A program made the position numbers and the translations under genes. This document shows, piece after piece, positions 23,670 to 50,921 of a stretch of 64,000 bases of DNA. The stretch is from Halolamina sediminis (GTDB lineage Archaea > Halobacteriota > Halobacteria > Halobacteriales > Haloferacaceae): assembly GCF_001282785.1 (NCBI RefSeq), contig NZ_CVUA01000001.1, positions 868,001-932,000 of the forward strand, read 5' to 3'. The notes beneath the pieces are model-generated. The model did no database searches, was not told the origin of the DNA, and saw only the letters and a program-made list of their open reading frames with translations. The number at the start of each line of letters is the position of its first letter. Within the stretch, counting starts at the first letter, position 1.

Positions 23670-23697
23670 CGGGCCGGAAGGGATTTGAACCCTCGAC
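23670..23697. repeat. Right attachment site inside tRNA-Lys
   Basis: This is the second copy of the 28-bp repeat found at 17701-17728. It covers the discriminator base, the acceptor 3' strand, the T-arm and the edge of the variable loop of tRNA-Lys. Insertion here leaves the tRNA gene whole. Confidence 0.9.
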
Positions 23698-23743
23698 CGA
23701 CGGATTAAGAGTCCGTCGCTCTCCCTAACTGAGCTACCGGCCC
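23670..23743 (-). tRNA. tRNA-Lys (anticodon CTT)
   Basis: 74 nt and a full cloverleaf: acceptor GGGCCGG/CCGGCCC, D-arm GCTC...GAGC, anticodon arm ACGGA-CTCTTAA-TCCGT with anticodon CTT, five-base variable loop, T-arm GAGGG-TTCAAAT-CCCTT and discriminator G. CCA is not encoded. CTTTATCGG at about 23766-23774 lies 25-30 nt upstream of the 5' end and is a likely TATA box. The gene is the integration target of the element to its left. Confidence 0.97.
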
Positions 23744-30871: not shown

Positions 30872-31122
30872 TGTCGGGGGGAGACAATCAGCGTTCCCCT
30901 GTGACGCGCCGTCGCGGCGACGAGTTGAATGCCAGCCCAGTAGCTCACCGCCGCGATAGGGCGAACAGGCGGCGCGATCGCTCCACGGAGGGTGCGCCGC
31001 GCTCCCGCCTCGGCCGCTCCGTGGTCGTGCTCAGACGACGACGGGGTTGGTCCCGTCACCGTACTTGAACGCCGGGGTGGCTGCTCCGGCGGCGTTTTAC
31101 CGTTCGGCCGCCAACGCCGCCT

Positions 31123-41430: not shown

Positions 41431-44400
41431 TTACTCCGGATTGTCGGTCGCTTTGCACGACTCGTCCCCGTCGACACCCGGGCAGGGCCACCCCGGCGAC
41501 TGCTCGTCGCGGTTCCCGTCCACGTCGCCGACGCCGGGCATCCCCGGCGGCACGACCGCGACGACGGTGGTCGACGCCTCGAAGTCGACACGTTTCCCCC
41601 GCCCGACCCGCTCGGCACGGCCATCCCTGTCAACGTCTAGGTGGGCCACGGTCCCGTCCCTGACGTACCGAACTGTCCCACTGCCGCCGTCGGGGGCGAC
41701 CCCTCGTGCCCGGAGGGCGAAGCGCTGGTACTCCCCGCGGACAGTGACGCTCCAGGCGTTCACCGTCGCGATCCAGCTGTACGGCGGCGGCGCGACGGGC
41801 ATCCCAGCCGGCAGCCGGGAGGCGCCGGTCAGCCTCCGGGTCGCTTTCGCGCTGGCGTTTTCCAGCGTTCCACTCAGCTCCGTCTGGGCAGTGTCCCGGG
41901 CCACCTGCTGCACCATCGATGCGGTGCGGTTGGTCGTCGCCGCGGGGACGCCGACCGCCCGCTCGGCGCTGAGTTCGCGGAGCCGTACCCGAACTCGGAC
42001 GCCCGCCTCGTCGGCCGTCGCCCGGTCGACACCGCGGGCCGCCAACGCGGCGGCGAACGGCGGAACGTAACTGCCGTTAGCCATCGCCTGCCCCCGGTGG
42101 CCCAGGGTCGGCCACCGATCGCGAGCGTCGACGACGGCCGCTCGACACGTCGATCGTTCCACGCCGGTTCCGTTCGTCGCGGCGGCACAGACAGCCCGCT
42201 CCGCTTCTTGGACCGAGTTTCCGACGGCAGCGGCCAGTTCGTCGCGGTTCGCGGCGAGCGCAGCCGACTCCTCGGACTGGTTCTCTGGGCTCGTCACGAC
42301 AGTCCGGTTCGCCGCGATCAGCGTCCCGGCGGCGGCGTCGAGGCTGACCTGCCGGCTGCCGCCACCCAGCAGCGTGTCGACGATCCCGGAGGCGGCGTCC
42401 CCGTACGGGAGCGCGATCCAGTTCGTCGTCCGCGCGGTCAAGGGGTGGGCTGACTCCCCGGCCGGCACGCTGGGCACCTGCCCGTGATCGACCGACTGGA
42501 GGGTGAGATACCCCGGGGAGGCGTCGGGCGTAATCACGATGTCGTCGTCCGACCTCCCCGAGTCGGTGTAGGCGTCGCTCGGCCGTCCCTCCGAACGGCC
42601 GCGTCCGAGTTCGATCAGTTCCGAGAGCCCGGCGGTCGCCCGGTCCCCGAGTTCGTCTTGGTAGTCGACGTTCCGGTCTCTGGTGTCGGCGGCGCGCGCG
42701 TCCAGTTCCGCGAGCACGCGGTCGAGGTACGCCGCGCGGGCGGCGACTCGCGCCCTGTCGGCGGCGCCGTCGTACGTCGCCGGCGCGTCGAGCAGTTCGT
42801 CCCGACGCTCACGAAGCGCCGCTGCCAGCTGAGCGCGGGCGTTCGCATCGCCGCTGGCGACCGCCGTCCGTGGAATCGACACCGAGACGTTCGCGACTTC
42901 GCGGCGGAGCTCTCGCAGGTCGGCGGTGATCCACGTGTCGATCCCACCCGGTCGCCTCCCGGTGATGGTCCGGCTCCGAACGAGCGTATCTCCGCCGCCC
43001 GCCGCGACCCGTTCGGCCACGGTGTCGGCGCCGCCGTTGGCGTCGAGAACCGCCTCGGCTGCCCGTTCGCGTGCGCCGTCGAGGTTCGGGCCGTCGAGCG
43101 CACCGCCGGGTTCGAACAGCGGTTCAGTCAGCCGGTCGGGCGCGGCGTCGTCTGGGTCGTACGCCGCGGTCGCGCGTACCGCGACGCGGGCGGTCTCGGT
43201 CCACTCGGCGCTTGTCGTTCGAACCGTCCCGTTCCGGCGCCAGTGCCGCTCGACCGTGTGGTGGGTCGTCACGTCCAGCACCCTGTCGACGACGGCCTCG
43301 GTGGAACCGGCCGGCGCGTCCTCGACGGTTCTGACGACCGTTCGCTCGCTCGTCTCCTCGTCTACCAGCGTCCAGTCGCGTAGCCGTGGCTCTGGCCTCG
43401 ATTCGATCGCTCGACTGCGAACCGTGACCCGGAGTTGGCCTCGAACGCGGTAGCTCCCGGCGGTCGACACGTCGTCGATCGAACCGAGGAACGCCCGATC
43501 GGCAGCGGCGTCCGGGGAGGCGTTGATCGGTGGATCGTCCGGTCGGCGTGGGGCGAACTCGCCCGGCGCCGGCTCGCTCGTGGCGCCGCCGACGGCGTTG
43601 GGGTTCACGAACGCCTTCGTCACGGCCGCGGCGTCGCCGTGGCGACCGCCGAGCACGTCGAGGACGCCGACCTTCACCGTCGCTACGTCCATCGCGCGTG
43701 CGCCGGCTGGATCGTGGCGCCCGAACGCGGCGCGCTGCTGGGCGAGCACTGCAGCGTTGGTCGAGAGTTCGACGTGGCGGTTCCCGAGCACGTTCCGAAT
43801 CGGCGTGCCGGCGTAGCGACCGTAGCCCCGCGCCATGGCCACCGCGGTCAGGCGAGTCGTCAGCCCTCGGGCGAGCCCCGGCCCGGCGAGCGCACCGCGG
43901 TTCAGCCGCCGCTCGTACGTGCTGGCCCGTCGGTGGAGCGCCAGCACCGGCGTCTCGACGGTGAACGTGACGTTCCGCCGCCGCTGGGCGATCGTCCGAT
44001 CCCCGTCCCGGGCTCGGACGGTGAGGTTTCGGATCGTCACACGCATCGCCGCCCCGCCGTCGACTGCCGTGATCCCGATGTCCGACTTCGCGCGTCGGAG
44101 CGAGGCAGTCGAGCCGTCGATCGGGGGGAGGTCGACGGTCGCCCTGACGCCGCCGCGCTCACGAGCCAGCTCCGACACGGACTCGCGGGCCGCGACGGCG
44201 ATCCGCAGCCTGAGCGCGTCGACGAACGGCCGGGAGTCGTTCAGCGCCCTCCCTGCCGCGGTGTCGGCCGGAGCCGTGACCGGCGTTCCGGCCGACTCGC
44301 GTGCGGCGTCCCGGACCGCCATTCGGAGCGCGGGCCGCGCGTCCCGGGTTACGCCGTCCATCGCGGCGGCCGCGGGTCGCTCGATCGAGGGATGTGTGCG

Positions 44401-44499
44401 ATCCGCGACTCCCGTCGCGTACACGGAGGCGCCGAGCAGCAGCAGGACGCCGACGAGCGCAAACGGAATCCGGCCACGGTCGTCGTCGGCGAAACTCAC
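41431..44499 (-). CDS. Giant membrane-anchored exported protein of the secretion/pilus cluster (DUF7286-like)
   Basis: 1022 residues from GTG 44499, which overlaps the previous stop as GTGA; a GTG at 44508 is nine bases further upstream. Near the N-terminus DDDRGRIPFALVGVLLLLGA is a charged, prepilin-like or signal-anchor segment. The rest is outside-facing, rich in Arg, Thr and Ala, with long helical parts and many potential N-glycosylation sequons (NLTVRA, NVSVSI, NRTVVT, NGSYVP, NRTASM). The C-terminus has a small domain with VVPPGMPGVGDVDGNRDEQS and two Cys (GWPCPGVDGDESCKATDNPE), possibly a disulfide. Likely role: structural or pseudopilin-like component. Confidence 0.72.
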   Translation of the reverse strand: MSFADDDRGRIPFALVGVLLLLGASVYATGVADRTHPSIERPAAAAMDGVTRDARPALRMAVRDAARESAGTPVTAPADTAAGRALNDSRPFVDALRLRIAVAARESVSELARERGGVRATVDLPPIDGSTASLRRAKSDIGITAVDGGAAMRVTIRNLTVRARDGDRTIAQRRRNVTFTVETPVLALHRRASTYERRLNRGALAGPGLARGLTTRLTAVAMARGYGRYAGTPIRNVLGNRHVELSTNAAVLAQQRAAFGRHDPAGARAMDVATVKVGVLDVLGGRHGDAAAVTKAFVNPNAVGGATSEPAPGEFAPRRPDDPPINASPDAAADRAFLGSIDDVSTAGSYRVRGQLRVTVRSRAIESRPEPRLRDWTLVDEETSERTVVRTVEDAPAGSTEAVVDRVLDVTTHHTVERHWRRNGTVRTTSAEWTETARVAVRATAAYDPDDAAPDRLTEPLFEPGGALDGPNLDGARERAAEAVLDANGGADTVAERVAAGGGDTLVRSRTITGRRPGGIDTWITADLRELRREVANVSVSIPRTAVASGDANARAQLAAALRERRDELLDAPATYDGAADRARVAARAAYLDRVLAELDARAADTRDRNVDYQDELGDRATAGLSELIELGRGRSEGRPSDAYTDSGRSDDDIVITPDASPGYLTLQSVDHGQVPSVPAGESAHPLTARTTNWIALPYGDAASGIVDTLLGGGSRQVSLDAAAGTLIAANRTVVTSPENQSEESAALAANRDELAAAVGNSVQEAERAVCAAATNGTGVERSTCRAAVVDARDRWPTLGHRGQAMANGSYVPPFAAALAARGVDRATADEAGVRVRVRLRELSAERAVGVPAATTNRTASMVQQVARDTAQTELSGTLENASAKATRRLTGASRLPAGMPVAPPPYSWIATVNAWSVTVRGEYQRFALRARGVAPDGGSGTVRYVRDGTVAHLDVDRDGRAERVGRGKRVDFEASTTVVAVVPPGMPGVGDVDGNRDEQSPGWPCPGVDGDESCKATDNPE

Positions 44500-45350
44500 G
44501 GTGACCACGTCCGGACGGAGATCTCGACGGTGTCCAGTTCGAGCGACGCCACAGCGTCGGTCGGGCTCCCACTGCCTCGGCGGAGGTCGCTCGCGACGCG
44601 GTCGGCCATCGCGGCCGCGATCCGGCTGTTCGCGGCGGTGGTGTCTCCTCGCTCGATCGCTCCCGCCGTCTCGACGCCGTACCGGGCGCTCACCCGTCGG
44701 TAGCGGTGCTGAACGAGCGCGTCGAGCGGCGGATCGTCGGCGAGCGCCAGTCGGCCCTTCTCGGGTGGGAGCAGTCCCGCGACCAGTGACGCTGCGACGA
44801 CGCGGCCGAGGCGTGCGAACCCACCTTCGGTCGCCGCGACCGACGCGTTCGCGGGCGGATCGACGCCGCTCGGTGCGTGAACCGTCGCCGCGTTTATGTT
44901 GGCGTCCGCCGGCGGCTCCGGACCGACGGCGAACGCTCGACCCATGTGGGCGTCGGGGTACGGCCGCCAGCGGACGACGACCCGGGTTCGGGCCGGCAGG
45001 CGTTCGACGACCGTCGCCCGAACCGCGGCCGCGAACCCCTCGCTGGTGCCAGTGAGTGCCTCACCGTCGACACGGACGGTCCGGACCGCGGCATCGGCCA
45101 GCAACGAGATGAGCGTCCCGTGGGCGACACGCTCGTACTCCGGGTTCGTGTCGGCGTCCCGGTCCCCCTCCCCGTCCGGCGCCGGCCGCAGCGTGTACGG
45201 TACGTCCGCGGTCGCCGCAGTCAGTGTCTCCGCGACTGGGTCGGCCCGGTCGGGCTCGTCGGTCGTGGGTGCCGGCGTACTGGTCACCGTGACCGCGGCC
45301 GCGCTGATCAACAGCAGGCAGAGACAGGCGTCGAGTGCGGTGGCACTCAT
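44496..45350 (-). CDS. Exported protein of the secretion/pilus cluster (DUF7284-like)
   Basis: 284 residues. MSATALDACLCLLLISAAAV is a hydrophobic leader or anchor. The exported part has VVERLPARTRVVVRWRPYPD and a second hydrophobic-like helix RLGRVVAASLVAGLLPPEKG. It ends VASLELDTVEISVRTWSP. The N-terminus overlaps the stop of the DUF7285-like gene by four bases and the C-terminus overlaps the giant gene. No catalytic motif is seen. It probably packs in the extracellular complex. Confidence 0.7.
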   Translation of the reverse strand: MSATALDACLCLLLISAAAVTVTSTPAPTTDEPDRADPVAETLTAATADVPYTLRPAPDGEGDRDADTNPEYERVAHGTLISLLADAAVRTVRVDGEALTGTSEGFAAAVRATVVERLPARTRVVVRWRPYPDAHMGRAFAVGPEPPADANINAATVHAPSGVDPPANASVAATEGGFARLGRVVAASLVAGLLPPEKGRLALADDPPLDALVQHRYRRVSARYGVETAGAIERGDTTAANSRIAAAMADRVASDLRRGSGSPTDAVASLELDTVEISVRTWSP

Positions 45351-45754
45351 CGGGACACAACCACCCGGAGCCAGCCGGACACCACTCGGCCGGGTGCGAT
45401 CCGTACCGGGACTCGCCGGCCCGCCGACTGGCTCTCCTCGTTCGGAGCAGGAGTGTCGCCGGCCGCCCAGTGCTGCGACCCGGCACGGAGCTCGACTCGG
45501 AGTGTCCAGCCCGTCGGTCCCTCGTCGACGGCTGCGCCGAGCCGGCCGGCCGACGCGACGCCGGCCGGCGCGACGGCGTCGTTGACTCGAGAGAGCGTCG
45601 GCTCGGCGACCTCGCGATCCGTGGTCGGGAGAACGCCGGCGAACACCGTCGCGTACAGCGACAGCCCGAGCCCGATCGCCGCCACGGCGACGAGCGTCGC
45701 CGTCGGCGACGCCTGCCCGCGGTCAAGCACCGACGAGCGTGGCGCGGTAGCCAT
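45347..45754 (-). CDS. Pilin-like membrane-anchored protein (DUF7285-like)
   Basis: 135 residues. After MATAPRSSVLDRGQASPTAT comes the hydrophobic segment LVAVAAIGLGLSLYATVFAG. The charged leader with RGQ before a 20-residue hydrophobic run is the class III-type signal found in archaeal pilins and pseudopilins, probably processed by a PibD/PilD-type peptidase. The rest is a beta-rich exported domain (WTLRVELRAGSQHWAAGDTP). It overlaps the DUF7283-like gene by 32 bases and the DUF7284-like gene by four. Confidence 0.72.
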   Translation of the reverse strand: MATAPRSSVLDRGQASPTATLVAVAAIGLGLSLYATVFAGVLPTTDREVAEPTLSRVNDAVAPAGVASAGRLGAAVDEGPTGWTLRVELRAGSQHWAAGDTPAPNEESQSAGRRVPVRIAPGRVVSGWLRVVVSR

Positions 45755-46187
45755 CCCAGCTCACCTCCCTGACGGCGATCTCGTCCGACGCGATCCACTC
45801 AGGCTCGCGCTCCCGTGCAGCTTCGACCGTGTCGCGGAACGCGTCGCGATCCGCGAACACCGTTCGCGGCGGTTCCCCGTCGAGAACTCGACGGAGCTTC
45901 CCGTCGTCGACCGTCACGACGGGGCCGAACGCGAACGTCGCCCGCGTGGTCCCGCGGCTGTTCCGCATCGAGATTCCGTGGGGACGGAGCCGGACGGCGT
46001 CGGCGCCGTGTTCGTGTGTCGCGCTTGATGGCGCGTCGCCGGCCGCGACCGAGTCGACGGTGTCTGCGACGCCCGCCGCGTCGGGCGCGGGGCGAGCGGG
46101 GAGCGTTCCGGCGACGGCGAGAAACGCCGCCGCGGCCACCACGAGACCGGCGTGCAACGCCGTCGAGTCGACTGGAGGTCCGATCAT
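45723..46187 (-). CDS. Exported protein of the secretion/pilus cluster (DUF7283-like)
   Basis: 154 residues. The N-terminal hydrophobic stretch STALHAGLVVAAAAFLAVAG is a signal anchor. The mature part has ISMRNSRGTTRATFAFGPVV and ends SWDGYRATLVGA. The ATG at 46187 lies 9 nt from the 30-nt conserved upstream motif, so this gene probably starts its own transcript as well as being read through from the F gene 39 nt upstream. Confidence 0.7.
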   Translation of the reverse strand: MIGPPVDSTALHAGLVVAAAAFLAVAGTLPARPAPDAAGVADTVDSVAAGDAPSSATHEHGADAVRLRPHGISMRNSRGTTRATFAFGPVVTVDDGKLRRVLDGEPPRTVFADRDAFRDTVEAAREREPEWIASDEIAVREVSWDGYRATLVGA

Positions 46188-46195
46188 GGGACGGA

Positions 46196-46225
46196 CTGGT
46201 TCCGGTTTCGTACTTGAACTCTCGG
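46196..46225 (-). promoter_or_regulatory. Conserved 30-nt promoter-position motif, copy 1
   Basis: The core on the plus strand is TTCGTACTTGAACTCT (46207-46222), so the minus strand reads AGAGTTCAAGTACGAA. The block matches 26 of 30 positions of 49914-49943 without gaps, and starts 9 nt before the start codon of the DUF7283-like gene. It sits in a gap of only 39 nt between genes. The A/T-rich part is at the TATA distance of a leaderless gene. Confidence 0.7.
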
Positions 46226-46226
46226 C

Positions 46227-47975
46227 TCAGAGTAGCGTGCCACCGGCGACGACCGCCGCGACGTAGGCTGCCGTCGCGGTGGGGAGTGCGAGCCCGACCC
46301 GGTAACCGAGCAGCGATCGATCGATCCCGCGCTCCAGCGCGGTCGCGAGCCCGGTCAAGGTCGCCGCGAGCAGGAGCACGTAGACGCCGACGATCGGCCC
46401 GATCGAGGCCGGAGCGAGCGCGGCCGATGCGGACGCACCGCTGCCTCCGAGCGCCCCGCCGGTACCGCCAGCGTCCGCGGGGATACGCCCTACCATCGCG
46501 ACGGAGACACCCCCGACCAGCGGGCCGAACAGCGCCGCCGTGTTCGAGAGTGTGCCGGTGATCGTCGCCAGCTCCCGACGCGCCTCGCGCTCGACGCGGG
46601 CGAGTTCACGGAGATGATCGCCCACGGCGACGAGCGCCTCCCCCGCCGGCGCGCCTTCCGTCGCCGCGAGGGCGAACAGCCGGCCGGCGTCCCGGGCTCG
46701 CGGGCTCGGCACGTCCCGGAGCGCTCCGAACCGGCCGAAGAACGCCTTCTCGACCGGAACCCCCAACCGCTCTCCCCGTTCCGCAGCGTCGGCCAGCAGG
46801 TCGCCGGCGTCGCCGGGCAGCTCCGCTGCGGTCTCCGCGAGTGCCCGTTCGACGGCCGTTCCGCCGGCGACTCGCCGACCGACCAGCGCCAGCGCGTCCG
46901 GCAGCCCCGACTCGATCTCCCGAACTTCCCGCCGAAGCTCCCGTGCGGGTGCGAACAGCCACAGCAGCGCGGCACCCGACCCGGCGCCGACGGCGACGAT
47001 CGAGGCTGCCCACGGCAGCACGAACAGACAGCCCGCGCCCGTGGCGACAGCCACGAACACGCCGAGCGCGGCAGCGCTCCGCCGGCGGTCGGGAACCGCG
47101 GGGTGGTCGCTATCGACTTCGGGTGGCGGGAACGAGACCGGCCGCCGGGCGAGCAGCCAACCGCTCGCGACGAGCAGCCCTGTCGGGAGAAGCAGATCGT
47201 AGAGCACCGTTAGCGTGCCGAGCCCGACGTTCACACCCGTGAGCCGTGCCGCGGGGAGCACGCCGACGAGCGCGAGCGGGAGCAACACGCCGAAGGCGTA
47301 CAGCCCCGTCAGCGGCGCCCGGATCTCCCCCGCGAACGACGCGGCACGCTCCTCGACGCCCGAGCGCACGGCCGAGAGCGCGCGCTCACAGCCGCGTTCG
47401 CGTGCGTCCGCGGGGGCGTCGGCGGCGTCGGCGACCAGCGCCGCGGCGCGTTCGATCTCCGGCGCCGTCTCGCCCCAGGCCGCGGCGAACGACGCCAACC
47501 CCGAGCCGGGCGTTCCACGGGCGTCGCGAGCGTGCTCGCGCAGCGAGTTGGCGAGATCGTCGTCGCCGGACCGCCCGGCGAACGCGACTGCCCGTTCCAG
47601 GCTCGGCTCCACCCGGAGCCGGAGCGTCAGCCGACCGAACAGCCCCGGCGCGTCGCCGACGGCACGGGTACGTGACAGCGCCGCGGCGGCGATCGGGGCG
47701 TTTCGGGCGGCGAGCAGCAGTCCCGTGCCGAGGACGACCGCGAGCGAGAGCAACGTGACTGCGCCGATCGCGACGGCGGTGAGGGTACCGGCGACCACGA
47801 TCAGGCTCCCGATCGCCTCGCTCGCAGCGACCAACTGCGGTGCCGCCGGCCAGTCGAGTTCCTCGCAGGCGTCACGCAGCGCTCCGTCGACGGCGGGTGT
47901 CCGTGGCCACGACGCCCCGACTCGCTCGACGAGCCGGGCGAACTGCTCCCGTCCGTCCGACGAGCGAGCTACCAC
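46227..47975 (-). CDS. Type II/IV secretion system F (PilC-like) membrane protein
   Basis: 582 residues from a GTG start. Two GspF/T2SSF domains are visible, each a cytoplasmic helical bundle followed by membrane helices. Domain 1 covers about 120-270 (LRVEPSLERAVAFAGRSGDD) and domain 2 about 375-520 (GLPDALALVGRRVAGGTAVE, LATITGTLSNTAALFGPLVG). Together with the ATPase it forms the inner-membrane platform on which a pilus-like fibre is assembled. The start overlaps the ATPase stop by seven bases, so the two subunits are made together. Confidence 0.88.
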   Translation of the reverse strand: MVARSSDGREQFARLVERVGASWPRTPAVDGALRDACEELDWPAAPQLVAASEAIGSLIVVAGTLTAVAIGAVTLLSLAVVLGTGLLLAARNAPIAAAALSRTRAVGDAPGLFGRLTLRLRVEPSLERAVAFAGRSGDDDLANSLREHARDARGTPGSGLASFAAAWGETAPEIERAAALVADAADAPADARERGCERALSAVRSGVEERAASFAGEIRAPLTGLYAFGVLLPLALVGVLPAARLTGVNVGLGTLTVLYDLLLPTGLLVASGWLLARRPVSFPPPEVDSDHPAVPDRRRSAAALGVFVAVATGAGCLFVLPWAASIVAVGAGSGAALLWLFAPARELRREVREIESGLPDALALVGRRVAGGTAVERALAETAAELPGDAGDLLADAAERGERLGVPVEKAFFGRFGALRDVPSPRARDAGRLFALAATEGAPAGEALVAVGDHLRELARVEREARRELATITGTLSNTAALFGPLVGGVSVAMVGRIPADAGGTGGALGGSGASASAALAPASIGPIVGVYVLLLAATLTGLATALERGIDRSLLGYRVGLALPTATAAYVAAVVAGGTLL

Positions 47976-49906
47976 GGCTCCCCACTCCCGTCGGTGCGAC
48001 CGTCGTCCTCCGCCCGGATGGCTGCCGGGCGCGTCACGCCGTCGGCGGCGAGTGACCGCAGGTGATCGGCCCGCGCGTTCAACGCCGTCAGCGTCTCGCC
48101 GTACCCCTCGCCCGGCGCCGCGAGATCCGCTAGCAGGCTGCTCTCGCCGCGGTCGAGCCGGTCGGTCGGTTCGAGCTCGCCGTCGTCGAGCGCGAACAAC
48201 GGATGGAGCTCGGTCCCGTCGTCGACTGATTCGACCTCCTCGATCGCGACTGCGCGCCGGCCGCGTTCCGTGTCGGCGACGGTGAGCACGAACCCCGTCG
48301 CGGCGAACGCGGACTCGCTCACGCCTAGATCCTCGATCATTCTGGTCCGGACTGCGTCGGCGCCGTCGCCGTGGACCGTGCCGAGCACCGTCCCCGAGGC
48401 CGCGCCGACGCGCATCGCCTCGTACAGCGTGCTCGCTTCCTCGCCCCTGACTTCGCCGACGATCAGCGCGCCCTCGCCGAGTCTGAGTGCGGTCCGGAGC
48501 GCGGATGCGGGGCTCGTCTGGGCGGAGTCGTCGTCGTCGCGGGCGACCCGGAGCGACTGCACGTCACGGCCCGCAGCACGGAGCGCCGCGGCCGGAAGTT
48601 CGGGAGTGTCCTCGATCAGTACCGTCCGCGTGGATCGAGGGAGCGCCCACAGCAGCGCGCCGAGCGTCGTCGTCTTCCCCGCGCCGCGTGCGCCGGCGAC
48701 CAACCCGGTCCCGCCGCGTTCGACCGCCAGGGAGAGCAGCGCCGCCGCCCGCGGCGTCAGGGAGCCGACGGCGACGAGCCGGGGGAGCGTCCATGGCTCG
48801 GCGTCGTGGCGCCGCACGGCGAACGCTGGCCCGGGCGAGAGCGGTCGGGTGACGCCGGCGATCCGCACCTCCTCGCGGTCGTCGGGCGGGCCGACGGGCA
48901 GCGTCGCGTCCACCTGTGGGGTCGCTCGCGAGAACGCGCGCCCGCTGCTCCGGCGGACCCGTGACGCGAGCGTCCCGACTCCCTCGGGGGTGAGCCGGAC
49001 GTTCGTCGGCATCGTCTCGTCGTCGACGACGACCCGGATGGGCGTCTCCGCCGCGGGTGCGGTGACGTAGACGTCCGAGACGCGGTCGTCCGCGAACAGG
49101 TCCGCGAACACGCCGTTGCCGCGCGTGTGCTTCCGGAGCGTCGCCGACAGCTCGGCGATCGGGGCGTCGGGATTCGCCACCTCCCGAACCGCACGGGCCG
49201 GAGCAAGATCACCACCCCCGTCGCGCTCCGCCAGTCGCTCCGCCGCGGCGTCGAGCAGTTCGAACGCGGCCGCGTCGAACGACGCCGACGCGGGCGTGAG
49301 GTGGTAGATCGCGTCCGATTCGGCCGCCGAGTCAAGCGCGTATTGCCGGACTGTCCCGCCGGTCGAGAGCGCCACCGTCTCGCGCAGTCGGGCGTCGGTC
49401 GGCGGCCGGTGGTCGATCCGGGATCGGGCGATCGCCGGCCCGCCGTGGGCACGCAGTGCCTCCTCGTGGTCGGCGGCCCGCTCAGCGCCCGCTGCGAGCC
49501 CGGTCTCCGCGGCAAGGCGGCCGATCGTGGCGGCGCGGCCAGTTGCGTCGCGGGCAGCCCGTAGCGGGGCCGTGCGCGCGGTCGCGGCGATCTCGGCGTC
49601 GTGGTGCTCGGCCAGTGCCGCGAACCGGCCGGCAGCGTGGAGTAGTCCGACGGCGCCGTCGGTGTACCAGCGTTCGTACCCCGCCGATCGGACGCGAACG
49701 GATTCGGCGTCCCGGTCGGCGAGTGCGTCGACGGCGGTCGCTCGACAGGCCGGCTCGGTCGCGAGGTCGCCGTCGCCGGGGCAGTCGTCGGCGTCGATAT
49801 GGAGTTCGACGCGGTTTTCGATCCCCGTCCCGGCGGGCTCGACGAACGCCGGCCGGCAGGCACACGCCCCGTCGTCGTCCTCGGCCCGCCACGGCAGCAG
49901 TGACAT
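47969..49906 (-). CDS. Type II/IV secretion system ATPase E (PilB-like)
   Basis: 645 residues. The catalytic part lies at about 290-560: Walker A LVAGARGAGKTTTLGALLWA, Asp box VLIEDTPELPAA, Walker B LRLGEGALIVGEVRGEEAST and His box LGTVHGDGADAVRTRMIED. It hydrolyses ATP to drive pilus or secretion-fibre assembly with the F protein. The first 40 residues have three cysteines (CACRPAF and DDCPGDGDL) that may bind zinc or link to the next domain. This is longer than a minimal PilB by an N-terminal domain of about 250 residues of unknown role. Confidence 0.92.
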   Translation of the reverse strand: MSLLPWRAEDDDGACACRPAFVEPAGTGIENRVELHIDADDCPGDGDLATEPACRATAVDALADRDAESVRVRSAGYERWYTDGAVGLLHAAGRFAALAEHHDAEIAATARTAPLRAARDATGRAATIGRLAAETGLAAGAERAADHEEALRAHGGPAIARSRIDHRPPTDARLRETVALSTGGTVRQYALDSAAESDAIYHLTPASASFDAAAFELLDAAAERLAERDGGGDLAPARAVREVANPDAPIAELSATLRKHTRGNGVFADLFADDRVSDVYVTAPAAETPIRVVVDDETMPTNVRLTPEGVGTLASRVRRSSGRAFSRATPQVDATLPVGPPDDREEVRIAGVTRPLSPGPAFAVRRHDAEPWTLPRLVAVGSLTPRAAALLSLAVERGGTGLVAGARGAGKTTTLGALLWALPRSTRTVLIEDTPELPAAALRAAGRDVQSLRVARDDDDSAQTSPASALRTALRLGEGALIVGEVRGEEASTLYEAMRVGAASGTVLGTVHGDGADAVRTRMIEDLGVSESAFAATGFVLTVADTERGRRAVAIEEVESVDDGTELHPLFALDDGELEPTDRLDRGESSLLADLAAPGEGYGETLTALNARADHLRSLAADGVTRPAAIRAEDDGRTDGSGEPW

Positions 49907-49913
49907 AGCGCGG

Positions 49914-49943
49914 CTGGTCCGGCTTTCGTACTTGAACTCTGGG
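49914..49943 (-). promoter_or_regulatory. Conserved 30-nt promoter-position motif, copy 2
   Basis: It carries the same TTCGTACTTGAACTCT core at 49925-49940 on the plus strand and lies 8 nt before the start codon of the ATPase gene, inside a 65-nt gap. Copy 1 has the same spacing. The two genes are the second ATPase-led unit and the exported-protein unit of the same cluster, so a shared activator or unusual basal element is implied. Confidence 0.7.
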
Positions 49944-49971: not shown

Positions 49972-50391
49972 TCAGCCCCGAACCGTGACGACCCGGCCGC
50001 CGTCGCCGCGAGCGAGGCCGAGCCGCAGTCGGTGATCCCCGGGCGTCCCGAACCGAACGGGGCCGTCCGGGGTTACGAGCGGGAGTGAAAGCCGTCGCGT
50101 TCGGGTCGCGCCGTTCCGGAGGCTGTACCGGACTCCACACGCGGGGTCGCAGTCGACGACGAACCGCTCCACGCCGACCGCCACCAACGAGTTCGCGGGG
50201 AGCGTGACCGTGAGTACCCGTCGTGCACCGGGATCGTCGGCGGCGAGCAGCGACTCCCCCGCCCGTTCAAGTCGGTTCACGTCGCGGTCGAGCGCCGCGG
50301 CCGTTCGGTCCGCCGCCGCCGCCTCGACTGCTGGCAGCGATACGGCGAGCAGCGCGGCCGCGAGCGAGACCGCGAGCAGCGCCCGGATCAC
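49972..50391 (-). CDS. Exported protein of the cluster (DUF7311-like)
   Basis: 139 residues from a GTG that overlaps the upstream stop (GTGA). IRALLAVSLAAALLAVSLPA is a signal peptide or anchor, then helix ADRTAAALDRDVNRLERAGE, then a beta domain with two Cys (FVVDCDPACGVRYSLR) that can form a short disulfide loop. It ends LRLGLARGDGGRVVTVRG. Context: second gene of the cluster, 65 nt before the ATPase. No enzyme motif is seen. Confidence 0.7.
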   Translation of the reverse strand: MIRALLAVSLAAALLAVSLPAVEAAAADRTAAALDRDVNRLERAGESLLAADDPGARRVLTVTLPANSLVAVGVERFVVDCDPACGVRYSLRNGATRTRRLSLPLVTPDGPVRFGTPGDHRLRLGLARGDGGRVVTVRG

Positions 50392-50837
50392 CGGAGCTCC
50401 CGGAGGCGCTCGCGCAGCCCCGACTCGGTAGATTCGTCGCTGCTACTCCCGTTCTCGGTATTGCTGTGAGCCTCGGCGTTACTCCCGTCGCCGACTGTCG
50501 GCGGTATCCCGCCTGAGTCCTCACTACCTCCTCGGGCGTCGAGAGCGTCGTCCGCGTCCTCGCTTCCGTCGAGGCGTCGTTCCAGGCGTTCGACCGCCGC
50601 GACGGCGGCGTCGGCACGCTGCTCGACCGACTCGTTCACCGCGGAGACGCCGCCGAGGAACCCCCTGACCGACTGTACCGCGGCCTCGAGCTCGTCGACT
50701 CTGGATTCGAGCGTCTCGATACGGGACTCGATCGCGTCGTCCTCGCTGTTGCTCCGCGCCGGATCACGCTGTTCCCCGTCGAGTGCGCGTTCGACGGCCG
50801 CGAGCCGTCGTTCCAGCGTCTCGTCGCTGTCGGGCAT
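50388..50837 (-). CDS. Coiled-coil protein, first gene of the secretion/pilus cluster (DUF7310-like)
   Basis: 149 residues, acidic. Residues 5-30 (ETLERRLAAVERALDGEQRD) and 40-62 (ESRIETLESRVDELEAAVQS) form coiled coils, followed by VEQRADAAVAAVERLERRLD. The Ser/Asn/Glu-rich tail is disordered. It probably links cytoplasmic parts of the machine. ACTTATCAC about 25-30 nt before the ATG is the likely promoter of the whole cluster. It diverges from cetZ across 84 nt. Confidence 0.72.
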   Translation of the reverse strand: MPDSDETLERRLAAVERALDGEQRDPARSNSEDDAIESRIETLESRVDELEAAVQSVRGFLGGVSAVNESVEQRADAAVAAVERLERRLDGSEDADDALDARGGSEDSGGIPPTVGDGSNAEAHSNTENGSSSDESTESGLRERLRELR

Positions 50838-50921
50838 GGGCGAGGTGGTCGCCCAATCGGTGATAAGTGTCGGGGCGGATCGCGGGGGAATCTTAAGGCG
50901 GATCGGAGCAAACGGGAACCT

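Follow-up and report, generated by a model that had tools for sequence, protein, structure and literature searches.

Why are two genes of a secretion/pilus cluster in the haloarchaeon Halolamina sediminis preceded, at almost the same distance, by two nearly identical stretches of 30 nucleotides (nt)? The question was raised by an initial annotation of 64,000 nt of its genome (assembly GCF_001282785.1, contig NZ_CVUA01000001.1, positions 868,001 to 932,000; this whole 64-kb stretch is hereafter called the window, and all coordinates refer to it), which proposed the twin motifs to be a dedicated promoter or activator site. Our analysis indicates that the motif is probably a two-part archaeal core promoter, made of a TATA-like box and the pentamer GRCCA, that is common to a small conserved haloarchaeal regulon.

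The twin motifs

The stretches 46196-46225 and 49914-49943 are indeed identical at 26 of 30 positions, and the 16-base core noted earlier, TTCGTACTTGAACTCT, occurs exactly twice in the window. With up to three mismatches allowed, it yields two matches against 0.11 expected, a number reached in one of 100 shuffles; similarly, repeats of at least 26/30 sharing a common 12-mer appeared in one of 20 Markov-1 simulations of the window. Statements on the whole 2.84-Mb host genome rest here and below on pattern searches and sampled stretches; in such a pattern search the exact 16-mer was found at the twin sites only, and two further sites carried two mismatches. The motif had been read on the plus strand, which is wrong since both following genes lie on the minus strand, with their ATG at 46185-46187 (DUF7283) and 49904-49906 (TadA). 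On that strand, the order is GAGTTCAAGTACGAAA, then GAACCA or GGACCA, then ATG, and the distances of 9 and 8 nt reported between motif and start codon agree with the differences between coordinates. Promoter copy 1 begins directly past the stop codon of the preceding gene. Together with two more sites, the twins form the following class, scored with a position weight matrix (PWM) described below:

46197..46225, minus strand: promoter copy 1, before DUF7283, with a CCGAGAG resembling the transcription factor B recognition element (BRE), the TATA-like TTCAAGTA, N9 and AACCA; PWM score 30.8
49915..49943, minus strand: promoter copy 2, before the TadA-type ATPase gene, with TTCAAGTA, N9 and GACCA; PWM score 27.5
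31048..31076, minus strand: third site of the class, predicted driver of a non-coding RNA; PWM score 27.9
50846..50874, minus strand: fourth site of the class, before DUF7310, with CTTATCACCGATTGGGCGACCA, missed by the initial annotation; PWM score 15.6

These are the four top-scoring sites of the window, the next best reaching 11.2.

Promoter architecture and conservation

The common layout consists of a TATA-like box (TTCAAGTA) 30-23 nt before the start codon, exactly 9 nt, GRCCA, 7-8 nt and the start codon. Conservation before the homologous genes in relatives, which had been named beforehand as a test of the proposal, was found: the regions upstream of tadA and DUF7283 keep the element across haloarchaeal genera, so that a dedicated promoter shared by these genes is very likely. 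Among 37 further genomes, the architecture is mostly kept in these regions while the literal word varies, the box reading TTCAAGTA, TTTAAATA or TTTATATA, followed by GRCCA, 7-8 nt and ATG or GTG. GAGTTCAAGTACGAAA is kept at both twin sites in several Halolamina species, and the literal 17-mer, with at most one mismatch, was found in 13 of 148 genomes of the family, mainly of the same genus. The conserved unit is thus the architecture of TATA and GRCCA and not the word, and a two-part core promoter on the minus strand is a better description of the proposed dedicated site than a 30-nt operator.

The composite pattern of TATA and GRCCA occurs in 49 of the 60 haloarchaeal genomes scanned for it, its reversed control mostly giving 0-1 matches. 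Forty composite sites were inspected; protein genes follow 11 of them, and the other 29 lead into a "start codon" with a stop one or two codons on. In the 51 RNA-gene promoters that served as a training set (see below), TT stands exactly 17 nt upstream of GRCCA in 49, and C occupies the first PWM column in 48, a CCGA-like stretch, not CGAAA, being found at the BRE position.

One could regard these sites as ordinary strong core promoters, in which TTCAAGTA simply works well as a TATA box, GRCCA is a sequence preferred at -10, and no dedicated regulation takes place. Indeed, the A+T content of ordinary promoters in the host genome peaks at -31 to -25 (around -28), and the TATA-like box coincides with this peak, as expected for leaderless transcripts. 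Such transcripts make up 72% of protein-coding transcripts in Haloferax volcanii, according to the excerpted text of PMC4983044. The transcripts predicted here would also be leaderless and start at the start codon, and both TATA position and spacing are typical of haloarchaea. Nor is the TATA-like word enriched by itself, with 84 TTYAWRTA sites in the host genome against 82 for the reversed pattern. However, GRCCA was found at -15..-12 in none of the 29 ordinary host-genome genes with a strong 6/6 A+T box (a stricter 8-mer TATA score left 13 genes only, too few to inform). The unusual feature is the fixed pairing of TATA with GRCCA, and not the TATA-like word. As the PWM, trained on RNA genes, picks hardly anything beyond RNA genes and a recurring handful of protein families, and as these families are functionally coherent, we consider ordinary promoters an improbable explanation.

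A near-identical site, TTCAAATACCGAGTCGGGACCAAACTGAGTG, recurs in several genomes (sites in G002, G005, G006, G019, G033 and G051) and has the look of a promoter spread by a mobile element.

The third site and a family of pseudoknotted RNAs

The stretch 31047-31076 had been described as a weaker copy without a start codon. It is identical to the twins at 21/30 and 22/30 positions and lacks a start codon as reported; it is not weaker, its score of 27.9 standing between the 30.8 and 27.5 of the twins. The start codon is missing because this site would drive an RNA gene:

30956..31041, minus strand: predicted pseudoknotted non-coding RNA of 86 nt, member of a multicopy family with covariation (E 7.4e-10; 69.9 bits)

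The 29 composite sites that are soon followed by a stop codon share a downstream sequence, and the third site belongs to this class: RTGNNCTGA is followed by a hairpin (P1), a loop GCGGGWGYGYGGC, and then GYCRCCTGTTCGCC, which pairs with the loop (P2) and thereby forms an H-type pseudoknot. A covariance model retrieved 16 copies in the host genome; it detected the RNA in 35 of the 60 haloarchaeal genomes, the largest number in a single one being 32. Over 70 distinct sequences and two stems, 90.4% of the cells were paired against 73.6% after shuffling, double changes numbered 190 against 54 after shuffling, and sliding the stems left 36-54% paired; the alignment model behind these values included P2 and not P1. 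From the 73 RNA matches, five were dropped from the comparison (three duplicate loci and two weak long ones), and six sites, including one that is a protein gene, were left out of the downstream comparison, their 3' end not being located. A pattern scan of named genomes gave at least 80 loci. Among the matches listed, 68 were haloarchaeal (Haloarcula, Haloferax, Halorubrum, Halobaculum, Natronomonas and others), all with a model match, one being partial and one cut by the locus end; the 12 bacterial loci listed were chance matches, none fitting the RNA model. There is hardly any doubt that the RNA family is real.

At gathering thresholds (16 sources), the RNA matched no family of Rfam 15, and at E<=1 (8 sources) only tRNA and chance-level matches were obtained elsewhere. 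Similarly, no published account of the RNA family or of the GRCCA promoter was found in a mostly title-level search that lay largely outside subscription journals and preprints. The RNA core was not found in viral contigs, which gave no sign of a viral origin. In the host genome, copies mostly occupy tight gaps between unrelated genes, the next gene often being convergent (13 loci), so that they look like stand-alone genes. A C/D box guide RNA was rejected since the consensus RTGNNCTGA does not match the box C RUGAUGA, and readings as DNA-uptake sequences or transposon ends were dropped because of orthologous loci, own promoters and stems that keep G-U pairs.

Nearly all copies start with RTG-NN-(C/T)TGA, so that the predicted 5' end carries a start codon and, one codon later, a stop (e.g. 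L234, L231 and L195); this may represent an initiator signature or else a very short open reading frame (ORF) engaging ribosomes; the copy of the window has GTC in place of RTG. In Haloferax (L310, L273 and L331), only a few genes separate the RNA gene from what is presumably an RtcB-like gene, and it sits between genes that we take to encode a HAD-like and a small zinc-ribbon-like protein. This context should allow the RNA to be located in existing Haloferax volcanii transcript data.

Of 67 RNA genes picked by RNA sequence alone, 50 carried GRCCA at -13 or -14 (two of 69 matches, truncated or partial, were left out of this count). By genome, the RNA and tadA were found together in 31, tadA only in 7, the RNA only in 4 and neither in 18 (Fisher p 2e-6). 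Without ten further members of sampled genera the counts were 25/5/3/17, which removes relatedness only in part.

Genes carrying the element

The PWM was trained on RNA-gene promoters only, namely the 51 of the 67, all from named haloarchaea and five of them Halolamina loci, in which GRCCA is present; owing to this restriction, the matrix is unfit to estimate how often GRCCA is missing. Scores of at least 20 were reached upstream of the TctA-like gene in 23/30 loci, a phospholipase D (PLD)-type nuclease gene in 24/30, tadA in 28/38 and DUF7283 in 29/36, with medians of 24.6-27.6. The TctA-like protein (PF01970, 2.2e-59) and the PLD nuclease are each found in 56 of 60 genomes, and 30 loci out of these 56 were tested for each. 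Among 819 control genes, 17 scored at least 20. Near the training loci these were 15 of 433 (median -8.4), each being the neighbouring RNA gene's own promoter, and in host-genome stretches 2 of 386 (median -9.4), which proved to be DUF7283 and the PLD nuclease.

Scans of longer sequence gave a similar picture. In 400 kb of the host genome taken at even steps, five sites scored at least 12 and none did in the reversed sequence; two belong to RNA genes and one to the PLD nuclease, one lies upstream of a gene with an RNA copy in H. pelagica and one is unexplained. At L120:16847 (plus strand), a sub-threshold promoter stands upstream of a gene that in H. pelagica (L295) is accompanied by an RNA copy in this position; the site probably marks the remnant of an RNA gene. 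Among 61 sites scoring at least 18 in 543 kb of other haloarchaeal loci, from which the training RNAs came, 60 were RNA-like. The element was also seen before a Cas4-like nuclease gene in four genomes and before DUF7382 in five. It is near-exclusively associated with RNA genes and these few protein families. A gene of Halolamina that we take to encode a trehalose-phosphate-synthase-like protein (L250 and L257) was excluded from the regulon, as its upstream TTCA..GACCA-like sequence has a spacing one base short.

Several observations weigh against a regulon of this kind. The DUF7283 copy in the window reads AACCA and not GRCCA; scores remain below 20 for 7/30 TctA, 6/30 PLD, 10/38 tadA and 7/36 DUF7283 upstream regions, some of which are due to start-site errors or a truncated contig; and several TctA or PLD promoters clearly have no GRCCA (L391, L392, L404, L434, L436 and L437). 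The element precedes the Rad3/DEAD_2 helicase in two Halolamina only, and a pilin gene (PF07790), elsewhere in the host genome, in that one genome only. Finally, under strict filters the RNA went undetected in 25 of 60 genomes, and seven genomes with tadA had no detected RNA while four with the RNA had no tadA orthologue.

The pilus cluster of the window

The genes around the twins are, as annotated, those of a secretion/pilus cluster, copy 2 preceding a T2SSE/TadA-type ATPase and copy 1 DUF7283, with four further DUF families in the same cluster:

41431..44508, minus strand: DUF7286 gene (family match)
44496..45350, minus strand: DUF7284 gene (1.8e-87)
45723..46187, minus strand: DUF7283 gene, first gene past promoter copy 1 (PF23954, 1.3e-45)
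46227..47975, minus strand: protein of 582 aa that follows tadA where TadC would be expected, named from its position only, with no Pfam or NCBIfam match
47969..49906, minus strand: TadA-type secretion/pilus ATPase with a Cys-containing N-terminus (T2SSE 1e-21; TadA family 3.9e-33, below that model's cut-off)
49972..50391, minus strand: DUF7311 gene (2.7e-40)
50388..50837, minus strand: DUF7310 coiled-coil gene, with the ATG at 50837 taken as its start in place of the mechanical ORF start

The mechanical ORF start of the DUF7310 gene, 51107, probably lies about 90 codons upstream of the real one. A tRNA gene detected by Rfam at 23670-23743 (minus strand) is unrelated to the promoter.

A possible reader of the element

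Downstream of the TATA box, GRCCA would lie at about -13, in the DNA that is contacted and melted by the initiation complex. The rigid spacing suggests recognition by the initiation complex itself, and the position of GRCCA within the contacted or melted stretch makes a paralogue of transcription factor B (TFB) or of the TATA-binding protein (TBP), or RNA polymerase, a better candidate reader than an upstream activator. Haloarchaea have several TFB and TBP paralogues, so that a dedicated paralogue would be the most economical reader, and in Sulfolobales a TFB paralogue, TFB3, controls the DNA-exchange genes. We give an alternative initiation factor close to an even chance.

The fixed spacing and the coherent gene set would fit any dedicated DNA-binding protein, including a classical activator or repressor bound to GRCCA and its flanks, with an operator overlapping an ordinary TATA promoter. 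However, the motif is asymmetric and without inverted repeat, its distance to the TATA box is as rigid as expected of an initiation complex, and a protein sitting at -13..-9 would block the polymerase unless it were a repressor; we hold such a regulator to be rather unlikely. Finally, GRCCA might be transcribed and act as a signal in the 5'-leader RNA, a reading that seems very remote since the TATA box has its centre 26-27 nt upstream of the start codon, so that transcription is predicted to begin at that codon and to leave GRCCA untranscribed, and since GRCCA showed no consistent pairing with the RNA.

Proposed function

The putative regulon would comprise the units of a type IV-like pilus (DUF7310-7311, tadA with the next gene, DUF7283 onwards, and the stand-alone pilin), and in addition the TctA-like membrane protein, the membrane or secreted PLD nuclease, the Cas4-like nuclease, the Rad3/DEAD_2 helicase, DUF7382 and the RNA family, whose RNAs may act within the same process as the proteins. 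In the methanogen Methanococcus maripaludis, the available sections of PMC10133366 report that a TctA-like protein and type IV-like pili are both required for natural transformation; the TctA homologue of Methanoculleus thermophilus is required too, in an experiment without complementation, and TctA-like proteins are proposed there as the DNA channel because archaea have no identifiable ComEC. By analogy with methanogens, the haloarchaeal set may be read as a DNA-uptake regulon, a function that we favour on balance. A surface nuclease of H. volcanii, HVO_1477, is needed for growth on DNA, as stated in the excerpt of PMC3929857; it is of the thermonuclease type and differs from the PLD nuclease of the regulon.

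The same genes might instead serve surface attachment or cell-cell DNA exchange (mating) and not the uptake of free DNA. Haloarchaeal type IV pili are known for adhesion (PMC4858521, in the portion available), and Sulfolobales exchange DNA by means of pili and a DNA importer (PMC11868833, likewise in part). On the other side, the TctA-like protein, nucleases and helicase fit DNA import, although exchange and uptake would both need them; attachment or mating appears unlikely, if less so than the rivals discussed above. Taking the pieces together, we tentatively propose, with somewhat less than even confidence, a class-wide competence regulon, served by an alternative factor at TATA and GRCCA, whose largest component would be the pseudoknotted RNAs (up to about 30 paralogues per genome) that regulate or join DNA uptake. 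If true, a single short promoter element supplies a list of components open to deletion tests in laboratory haloarchaea and brings to light an RNA family that Rfam 15 lacks and that reaches about 30 copies in a genome; the gene set would then be defined by a core-promoter element rather than by an upstream operator.

Comparison with known systems

The haloarchaeal basal promoter has been described as a BRE CGAAA, a TATA box TTWT and a WW at -10 (Brenneis 2007, as quoted in PMC4983044). The present element resembles it in having a TATA-like box where one is expected, about 27 nt upstream of the predicted transcription start, in its putative leaderless start and, less clearly, in a purine-rich BRE position. 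It differs by a GC-rich GRCCA at fixed spacing in place of the A/T-rich WW, by a TATA box that often reads TTCAAGTA, and by its restriction to a small gene set.

Concerning the genes, the set shares with the transformation genes of M. maripaludis a type IV-like pilus and a multi-spanning TctA-like protein, the likeness to MMJJ_13030 being at the level of the TctA family (PF01970), and a secreted nuclease is also proposed there (PMC10133366, in the sections available). In contrast, the haloarchaeal nuclease is PLD-type and not a thermonuclease, and these sections make no mention, for M. maripaludis, of a Cas4-like nuclease, a Rad3-like helicase, the RNA family or the promoter. The pilus itself resembles archaeal type IV pilus subclade 4F, characterized by an ATPase with a Cys N-terminus, a cytoplasmic coiled-coil protein and a stand-alone pilin (PMC4858521, in the portion available), a likeness by gene features alone. 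Indeed, the TadA-type ATPase has cysteines within its first 55 residues (by eye), matching the Cys-rich N-terminus of 4F, the DUF7310 coiled coil corresponds to the partner protein and PF07790 to the pilin.

Similarly, the Ups/Ced exchange system of Sulfolobales combines a pilus with DNA import genes (PMC11868833, in the part available). Its proteins are different, and Ups/Ced is damage-induced. To our knowledge, no RNA family is known for Ups/Ced. In streptococci, a bacterial sigma factor, ComX, reads a short core-promoter element, the cin-box, at competence genes; the reading proposed for haloarchaea would be an archaeal counterpart of this system, with the difference that ComX is a bacterial sigma factor.

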